Positions 25,675 through 34,420 of a stretch of 45,641 bases of DNA are shown piece after piece. The notes below the pieces were generated by a model. That model made no database searches, was not told the DNA's origin, and was given only the letters and a program-made list of their open reading frames with translations. The stretch comes from Dehalococcoidia bacterium. GTDB lineage: Bacteria; Chloroflexota; Dehalococcoidia; Lucifugimonadales; VXLM01. The stretch lies in the NCBI GenBank assembly GCA_009841605.1, contig VXLM01000047.1, positions 15,924 through 61,564 of the forward strand. Reading direction: 5' to 3'. Both the position numbers and the translations under genes were made by a program. Numbering within the stretch: position 1 is the first letter of the stretch; the number at the start of each line of letters is the position of its first letter.

Positions 25675-25680
25675 ATGGTC

Positions 25681-25932
25681 ATGTCGATCACGATGCTGAA
25701 TATCCATGAAGCAAAGACCCATCTGTCCAAGCACCTCGCCGATTTGAAAGCCGGTGACCGGATCATCCTGTGCCGCAGAAACCGGCCTGTGGCGGAGATA
25801 CTGCCCCTTGACGGCGGTATGGACGAACCTCGCCCTGTGGGTCTGGGAAGAGGCCTGGCCGAAGTGCCCGACTCGTTTTTCGACCCGCTCCCCGACGACA
25901 TCCTCGATGACTTCGAGGGAGTTGGCAGGTAA
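25681..25932 (+). CDS. Phd/YefM-family antitoxin
   Basis: 83 aa from the ATG at 25681; ATGs at 25675 and 25693 are alternatives and none has a ribosome-binding site. N-terminal Phd fold: MLNIHEAKTHLSKHLADLKAGDRIILCRRNRPVAEILPL, the DNA-binding and dimer part. The acidic C-terminal tail (FFDPLPDDILDDFEG) is the usual toxin-neutralising segment. Such antitoxins repress their own operon. The PIN toxin gene starts 19 nt downstream. Confidence 0.88.
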   Translation: MSITMLNIHEAKTHLSKHLADLKAGDRIILCRRNRPVAEILPLDGGMDEPRPVGLGRGLAEVPDSFFDPLPDDILDDFEGVGR

Positions 25933-25951
25933 GGTCTCTGTTGCGTAGCGC

Positions 25952-26338
25952 ATGAGGCTATTACTCGACACCGTTGCCTTCATATGGCTGGTTGATGGCA
26001 ACACACGCCTTGTGGAATCGGCTCGCGCGGCGATCACCGACCCCGCTAACGAACTCTACCTTAGCGCCGCCTCCGCGTGGGAGATCGCGATCAAGTATGA
26101 GCTTGGACGCCTTCGGTTACGTGTGCCTCCGCACGAGTACGTTGTCGAGCAGAGGCGGCTCCATAGAATCAACTCACTTCCGATTACCGAAGAATCTACC
26201 TTACAAGTGGGCAAGCTGCCCGGCCTGCATCGTGACCCCTTCGACCGAATTCTCGTTGCTCAAGCGATTGTTGAGGGCCTGACCATCGTCACTTCCGATC
26301 GTCTTGTAAGCATGTACCTCGTTAGGGTCATTTGGTGA
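25952..26338 (+). CDS. PIN-domain (VapC-type) RNase toxin
   Basis: 128 aa, full length. PIN carboxylates are in place: Asp6 (LLLDTVAF), Glu44 (SAASAWEIAIK), and Asp96/Asp100 (HRDPFDRILVAQA), with a final TSDR. VapC-type toxins cleave tRNA or rRNA with Mg2+. Paired with the Phd-type antitoxin just upstream, forming a type II module. It lies between diverged direct repeats and next to a repeat-rich zone, consistent with arrival by transfer. Confidence 0.88.
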   Translation: MRLLLDTVAFIWLVDGNTRLVESARAAITDPANELYLSAASAWEIAIKYELGRLRLRVPPHEYVVEQRRLHRINSLPITEESTLQVGKLPGLHRDPFDRILVAQAIVEGLTIVTSDRLVSMYLVRVIW

Positions 26339-26388
26339 TTCAAGCCGGAGCGAAGGGTCGTGTCCCATAGGTGTTTGTCCTCCGCCGC

Positions 26389-26450
26389 CCCCTGCGGTCA
26401 TTCAACGGGAGTCTACATCAGACAACTGCAAAACTCGACCTGTGCGATAC
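26389..26450. repeat. Diverged direct repeat, right copy
   Basis: Partner of 25491-25556, on the other side of the Phd/PIN module; see that entry. Confidence 0.5.
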
Positions 26451-26600
26451 GTAACTGTTCAGTCTTCGTGAGTTGAATCGCGAAGACCCCCTCTCTGTAT
26501 CTCTCCCCCGTCGGGATGACAGGGGTAGGTAAAAAGGATTTGCAGCTATGATTCAGCCCCGTCTCCCTGTCATTCCGAGCGTGGCGAGGAATCTAAAGTC

Positions 26601-26943
26601 GGTTCTGTTGTGTTGTGGTTGAACTAGAACCTCGCCTTCCGTTCACTCACGACGATCCCTTCGGGGGCAGTTCTCGCAGTATCCGCCTTGAGGGGGGAAC
26701 TTCCCCCCGCGCCGATCGTTGCAATAGGTTAGGTTGCCACATGGTTGTTGTGTAGCGTAGTACCCGTCAGGTTTGTGAACTAGGACGGGTTGTTGACTGT
26801 TGATTTCAAACGCTTCCCTTGCGGCCTTATCGTCTCTCATGTCGGCATTCAATGAGTGCTGTTTCCTCTTCACTCCCTTCGCCATGATTCCTCCTTGCTT
26901 AAGCCGTACCCTATTATCGTTTCAACCACAACACAACAGAACC
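26601..26943. mobile_element. 343-bp inverted-repeat element with an 8-bp target duplication and a passenger gene
   Basis: Perfect 23-bp terminal inverted repeats (26601-26623 and 26921-26943, outer ends GGTTCTGTTG/CAACAGAACC) bounded by direct repeats CTAAAGTC at 26593-26600 and 26944-26951. The related family 1 copy near 34271 has a single CTAAAGTC followed by the same CCAT context, serving as an empty site. There is no transposase, so it is MITE-like and must be moved in trans. GG-ended inverted repeats with 8-bp duplications fit IS1595- or ISL3-type transposases, by inference. Contains one 80-codon gene on the minus strand. Confidence 0.85.
26643..26885 (-). CDS. 80-aa Cys-containing passenger protein of the inverted-repeat element
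   Basis: The ATG at 26885 has AAGGAGG 5 nt upstream, a strong ribosome-binding site that argues for a real gene. The N-terminus is basic (MAKGVKRKQHS). The C-terminal half has four cysteines (C49-x5-C55-x14-C70-x2-C73) that could form a zinc knuckle, followed by a basic end (CPRRDRRE). I do not recognise a family. It occupies most of the element between its inverted repeats. A nucleic-acid-binding role would suit the composition but is a guess. Confidence 0.6.
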   Translation of the reverse strand: MAKGVKRKQHSLNADMRDDKAAREAFEINSQQPVLVHKPDGYYATQQPCGNLTYCNDRRGGKFPPQGGYCENCPRRDRRE

Positions 26944-27223
26944 CTAAAGTCCATGACTGCAAGACGGGTTAATCGGCGTGCCATCCGTATCCTCGCCGAC
27001 GGGATAGGAATTCTCCATGTCGGCGCTGCCTTAGGACGGGCATTTTAGATTCTTCACTCCGCTTCGCTGCGTTCAGAATGACAGTGACTGCGTTGTTTTC
27101 TCATCAATGGAGGCATGGGGCGATAGTCAAAAGCCTACCCCTGTCAGCCCTCACCTTTGGGTACACAAATCTTGAGTTTCAGTCCTTGGCTTGCCTGACA
27201 GGGGATGAAGTGTAGGTACGCCT

Positions 27224-27568
27224 TTATGTGCCCTCGTCCGCAGTGATGCATTTATAGATTTCCACTTCCACGGGCAAGAATGGGTACTCAAAAGGAATGA
27301 CGGAGCGAGAACTGCATAGAAAGCTAGGGCCAATGTACAATGCGGGCTTCTCTGTAAAGTGACTAGGGCCGTAATAAGTGCGGCTTGCGCTGATGCTGTA
27401 GAGGCCTGCCGGAATGTTCACTGTGCCACCCGCCATACTGACATACAGGCCGACCGACAACACCGCAGTGACTAACGCTACGGTTGTGATGGCCATGCCG
27501 ATAGCGTGCACGTTAGCGGGCGTACCACTGAAAAGTCTTCGTATGATCGTTCTTCCGTGTGCCATCAT
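27224..27568 (-). CDS. Possible small membrane-anchored protein, unknown
   Basis: 114 aa with one hydrophobic span (about residues 20-45, MAITTVALVTAVLSVGLYV) and a short outer domain. No family recognised and no clear ribosome-binding site at the ATG (27568). Lower GC than the neighbours. It may be real, or the frame may be fortuitous. Confidence 0.35.
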   Translation of the reverse strand: MMAHGRTIIRRLFSGTPANVHAIGMAITTVALVTAVLSVGLYVSMAGGTVNIPAGLYSISASRTYYGPSHFTEKPALYIGPSFLCSSRSVIPFEYPFLPVEVEIYKCITADEGT

Positions 27569-27654
27569 GGGCTAGACCATCTGAAAAGCAAGGCCGTTCA
27601 CTGGCAAACGAAGAGACATCCCCGACGACCCCGCCGTCTTTTTCACAAAGAACC

Positions 27655-34186: not shown

Positions 34187-34278
34187 TCGCAGGCAGGCAG
34201 GGGTAGGTAAAACGGAACTGTAGCTATAACTCTCCCCCCTTGCCTGTCATTCCGAGCGTAGCGAGGAATCTAAAGTCC
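34187..34278 (+). repeat. Composite family 1 repeat unit (empty-site counterpart)
   Basis: Starts GCAGGGGTAGGTAAAA and ends in the family 1 core GAGGAATCTAAAGTCC. It parallels 26518-26600 but without the 343-bp insertion. Confidence 0.7.
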
Positions 34279-34375
34279 ATAACCGTAGGACTCGACAGCC
34301 AGTGCCGCGCTTGCATCGTGACCAAGAGTGAACACAGCGTAAGAATGCCACATGTCAGCTTTACGTTGGGACAGA

Positions 34376-34420
34376 CATTTTAGATTCTTCGACTTCGCTG
34401 CGCTTCGCTCAGAATGACAA
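34376..34420 (-). repeat. Dispersed extragenic repeat family 1, inverted
   Basis: CATTTTAGATTCTTCGAC...CAGAATGACA, the mirror of the unit 100 bp to the left. Confidence 0.75.

Follow-up and report, generated by a model that had tools for sequence, protein, structure and literature searches.

The locus examined here raises the question of whether a short segment bounded by inverted repeats is a mobile element and, if so, to which insertion sequence (IS) family its ends belong and whether it carries a gene of its own. The segment lies in a stretch of 45,641 nucleotides, referred to here as the window (G000:C101:15924-61564), which is part of a 3.23-Mb draft genome. The initial annotation interpreted it as an insertion that carries a passenger gene but lacks a transposase, pointed to an IS1595/ISL3-type relative, and considered that it may represent an undescribed class of cargo element. 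An inserted, transposase-less segment with a probable passenger gene was recovered in our analysis, whereas neither the proposed families nor the undescribed class was upheld.

The element is 343 bp long and occupies positions 26601-26943 of the window, its bounds being given by 23-bp inverted repeats and 8-bp duplications. The left terminal inverted repeat (GGTTCTGTTGTGTTGTGGTTGAA, 26601-26623, forward strand) and the right one (26921-26943, reverse strand) are identical at 23 of 23 positions, and the octamer CTAAAGTC borders the element on both sides (26593-26600 and 26944-26951), both as first annotated; empty paralogues contain these 8 bp once. The only coding content is an 80-aa orphan open reading frame (ORF) on the reverse strand (26643-26885), a putative passenger gene for a basic protein with four cysteines in the pattern C49-x5-C55-x14-C70-x2-C73. 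The Shine-Dalgarno sequence AAGGAGG (26890-26896, reverse strand) is located 4 nt ahead of its ATG, so that the ORF, the strong ribosome-binding site, and the four-Cys motif of the initial annotation are all present. Searches of Pfam, NCBIfam, and PHROGs gave no transposase match within the 343 bp.

The family to which the ends belong was approached through related ends and through an end profile. When 250 genomes of the order were searched for the 22-bp end, allowing 3 mismatches at most, three foreign matches were returned, about the number expected by chance, one of which is the exact right end of an IS6 element, L029 (JACPCK010000020; 1282 bp, with the 8-bp duplication TCTTCTCT and a transposase that exceeds the IS6 cut-off of NCBIfam). 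Its end shares 19 of 23 bases with the query end and is the closest match, identical ends having been found in no element; at the other two 3-mismatch matches, L025 and L026, there was no convincing element. The IS6 end profile was constructed from 15 non-redundant IS6 elements of Chloroflexota, each bordered by a perfect 8-bp duplication and taken from IS6 transposase loci; their ends are mostly of the GGTTC type. All 15, L029 included, were located via their transposases, so that similarity to the query played no part in assembling the profile; L029 had come to light through its transposase (as L014) ahead of the end search. The query end scored on this profile 25.9 bits, compared with 7.4 to 29.4 bits for the known members in leave-one-out analysis, it exceeded every other GG-starting 23-mer of the window, and none of 300,000 random ones reached its score.

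The query end (GGTTCTGTTG) starts with GG and carries cTGTt, as does the published IS6 end motif, which consists of a GG tip, cTGTt, and an inner 'caaa' with strong though incomplete conservation in the family (PMC7986276). This inner motif is missing from the query end, where GTGTT takes its place, and also from Chloroflexota IS6 ends such as those of L029 and L044; because its conservation across IS6 is incomplete (PMC7986276), it is not strictly defining. The direct target duplication of 8 bp is likewise that of an IS6 element. At 23/23, the arms of the query are more perfect than those of most autonomous relatives, a point against this assignment; both arms may derive from a single end that was duplicated.

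In our assessment, the 343-bp segment is likely a non-autonomous mobile insertion cassette of the IS6 family, in which IS6-type ends enclose a small passenger gene and no transposase. Should the 80-codon ORF be fortuitous or decayed, the same mobile ends would delimit a plain IS6-type miniature inverted-repeat transposable element (MITE), a reading that we regard as rather unlikely. It draws on the frequency of ATG-initiated ORFs of at least 80 codons in dinucleotide shuffles (4.7%; 16% for any start), on the codon use of the ORF, which is atypical and not host-like, on the homologue searches described below, and on the description of ORF-less MITEs in the IS6 family, 227 and 336 bp long (PMC7986276). 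Against it, an ORF of such length combined with any Shine-Dalgarno sequence arose in only 24 of 6000 shuffles, and with AAGGAGG in 1 of 6000; moreover, the ORF spans 71% of the element, and similarly atypical codon use is seen in some passenger ORFs of L012, the IS6 element resident in the same genome. We therefore favor the mobile insertion cassette, with the 80-aa ORF as its probable passenger gene, as judged from these sequence features.

No significant homologue of the 80-aa protein was detected in 98 near genomes, 393 genomes of the class, genome contigs, viral contigs, phages, or the PDB, and the profile searches proposed in the initial annotation also returned none in Pfam, NCBIfam, or PHROGs. 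Weak hits were judged to be chance, among them L174, which is antisense or adjacent to another ORF, and a miniaturised rubredoxin (E 1.1). Derivation of the ORF from the N-terminus of an IS6 transposase, as a relic, was suggested by a 9-residue match (PVLVHKPDG/PIYLHKPTG) but rejected, since a match of this quality was reached in 49 of 2000 shuffles. The predicted structure of the protein was unusable (mean pLDDT 49.9), and neither a sigma-70-type promoter nor a terminator was found on the strand of the gene. An RNA function of the element was also considered, the sole Rfam match being sub-threshold and attributed to chance.

Derivation from an IS1595-family element, one of the two origins initially suggested, is very improbable. 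IS1595 elements likewise start with GG and generate 8-bp duplications, and the same genome encodes four IS1595 transposases; however, the IS1595 ends of the order that are bordered by perfect 8-bp duplications (GGTAACTATCCCTTGACA, GGTGAGTATCCC, GGGGATTATGCAC, and similar sequences) are identical to the query at only 5-9 of 23 positions, and the query end scores -5.6 bits on the IS1595 profile. IS1595 ends of the order beginning GGTAACTATCCC-, like those beginning GGGGATTATGCAC-, are quite unlike the query (GGTTCTGTTGTGTTGTGG), and the surroundings of the four resident copies yielded no end resembling it. The IS1595 elements of the order (L142, L143, L151, L156, L157, L159, L165, and L166) measure 1.8-2.2 kb, with transposase frames of ~300-330 aa, and may therefore contain passenger genes too. 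An ISL3-family origin is more improbable still: GG ends and 8-bp duplications are typical of ISL3, but ISL3 transposases were found in none of 40 genomes (the genome under study and 39 relatives), and it is the IS6 profile that fits the query end.

That the 343 bp represent an insertion is confirmed by the repeats, the duplication, and the empty paralogous sites, which together lie far beyond chance. Both flanks are formed by a dispersed host repeat of ~180 bp (26564-27087, forward strand, with the element inside this span), which has 43 matches in the same genome. The host repeat has inverted ends (CTGTCATTCCGAGCG...GCTCAGAATGACAG) and is abundant in the congeners G001 and G003 as well; it is possibly itself a MITE family. 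For the count of empty sites, the flanks were joined with one 8-bp copy and aligned to the repeat copies, and places in the congeners were counted after overlapping loci had been dropped. The junction was crossed without an insert by 49 alignment rows; in the genome under study, 30 of 30 fetched repeat loci were uninterrupted at the junction, as were ~16 distinct repeat copies in two congeners. The counterpart within the window noted in the initial annotation is indeed uninterrupted (site 34270-34277, reading GGAATCTAAAGTCCATAAC, in a repeat copy at 34240-34420, forward strand), but it is a paralogous repeat copy and not the same locus. Paralogous empty sites of this kind strongly favor insertion over an ancestral state. 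An ancestral intergenic gene flanked by fortuitous inverted repeats, a reading to which the single copy and an uninformative orthologous locus (in G003 the contig starts at the match to 26980, and G001 lacks 25907-27642) would lend themselves, is contradicted by inverted repeats that match at 23 of 23 positions and abut the 8-bp duplication precisely, and by ~46 uninterrupted paralogues, and can scarcely be entertained. Just upstream of the insertion, at 25675-26338, there is a putative VapBC-like antitoxin/PIN-type toxin gene pair, identified by sequence appearance, the second gene of which is included in the part missing from the corresponding place in G001.

The initial annotation counted the lack of a second copy against its own reading, and in the available data there is indeed one copy in the 3.23-Mb assembly and none in 97 relatives; copies of the element DNA were also not found in plasmids, and the end sequence was absent from the viral contigs searched. 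An autonomous element with the same ends, which that annotation suggested looking for, was found neither in the same genome nor in 250 genomes of the order or the viral contigs. The resident IS6 element L012 (2179 bp, duplication CTTGCGGC) has ends that match those of the query at only 10-12 of 23 positions. Two same-genus genomes are public Chloroflexota MAGs, IRC4_bin_30 (L016, the same as L049) and APA_bin_48 (L015, the same as L041). The source of the cognate transposase may have been lost, may be unassembled, or may reside in another strain. As there is neither a second copy nor a partner with the same ends, it is from the target duplication and the empty sites that we infer mobility.

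IS6 transposition generates 8-bp duplications via a cointegrate resolved by RecA-dependent recombination (PMC7986276). By this route, an IS6 transposase acting in trans would have bound the 23-bp ends and joined them to a staggered 8-bp target, CTAAAGTC, within one of the dispersed host repeats; replication and recombination would then have produced the duplication of these 8 bp on either side of the element. The cassette itself may descend from a passenger-carrying IS6 element, a kind common in Chloroflexota, that lost its transposase, and the 80-aa gene would be expressed from near the right end of the element.

Among non-autonomous IS derivatives, MITEs and mobile insertion cassettes are already described and are told apart by whether they contain coding sequence (PMC5444012; also PMC3129680); here, IS ends surround a probable coding sequence and a transposase gene is absent, which corresponds to the latter. 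Within the IS6 family, two MITEs are listed, MITEBth2 and MITEHarch3 (PMC7986276, PMC6807381), of 227 and 336 bp and without ORFs (PMC7986276), and the IS6 review names a single member with a passenger, ISDsp3, which comes from Dehalococcoides (PMC7986276). With these on record, the suggestion of an undescribed class does not hold. The element unites IS6 ends, a probable passenger gene, and the absence of a transposase, i.e. two features known separately in IS6, and an IS6-ended cassette was not found in a literature search largely confined to papers outside subscription. Compared by description, it resembles MITEBth2 and MITEHarch3 in size, in its two IS6-type ends, and in the lack of a transposase, and differs from them in its probable 80-aa gene. 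With the Chloroflexota zinc-ribbon IS6 elements (L029, L032, L045, and the database member ISDsp3) it shares GGTTC-type ends, the TGGTTG inner motif, the 8-bp duplication, and the same order, and several of these relatives carry passenger ORFs; it differs in having no transposase gene, a length of 343 bp compared with 1.3-3.0 kb, perfect 23-bp ends, and a different passenger. A passenger between IS ends, no transposase, and presumed mobilization in trans are also features of the qnrS2 cassette of pAC3 (PMC5444012) and of Bacillus cereus MIC231 (cited in PMC2266710), which belongs to another family, IS231.

Among Chloroflexota IS6 elements (L012, L032-L050), 13 of the 15 whose target duplications are perfect have at least one extra ORF besides the transposase, often small, membrane-protein-like, and located just upstream of it. 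Two tandem arrays were also observed, each containing two different IS6 elements with one common 8-bp duplication present three times (CTTCTTGC in L034:744-3655 and GCCAATCC in L036:340-3942), as if the second element had targeted precisely the duplication bordering the first one. IS6 elements such as IS26 and IS257 move resistance genes. Taken with the extra ORFs in 13 of 15 IS6 elements, the cassette suggests that environmental branches of the family commonly carry cargo and that this has been under-recorded. A much more tentative proposal, which we consider doubtful at present, is that a population of IS6-ended cassettes shuttles small accessory genes in Chloroflexota and that their cargo includes the 80-aa four-Cys protein as a functional product under selection, such as a regulator that binds metal or nucleic acids. 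If this were true, the role of IS6 would widen from mobilizing resistance genes to carrying small genes in general within an environmental phylum.
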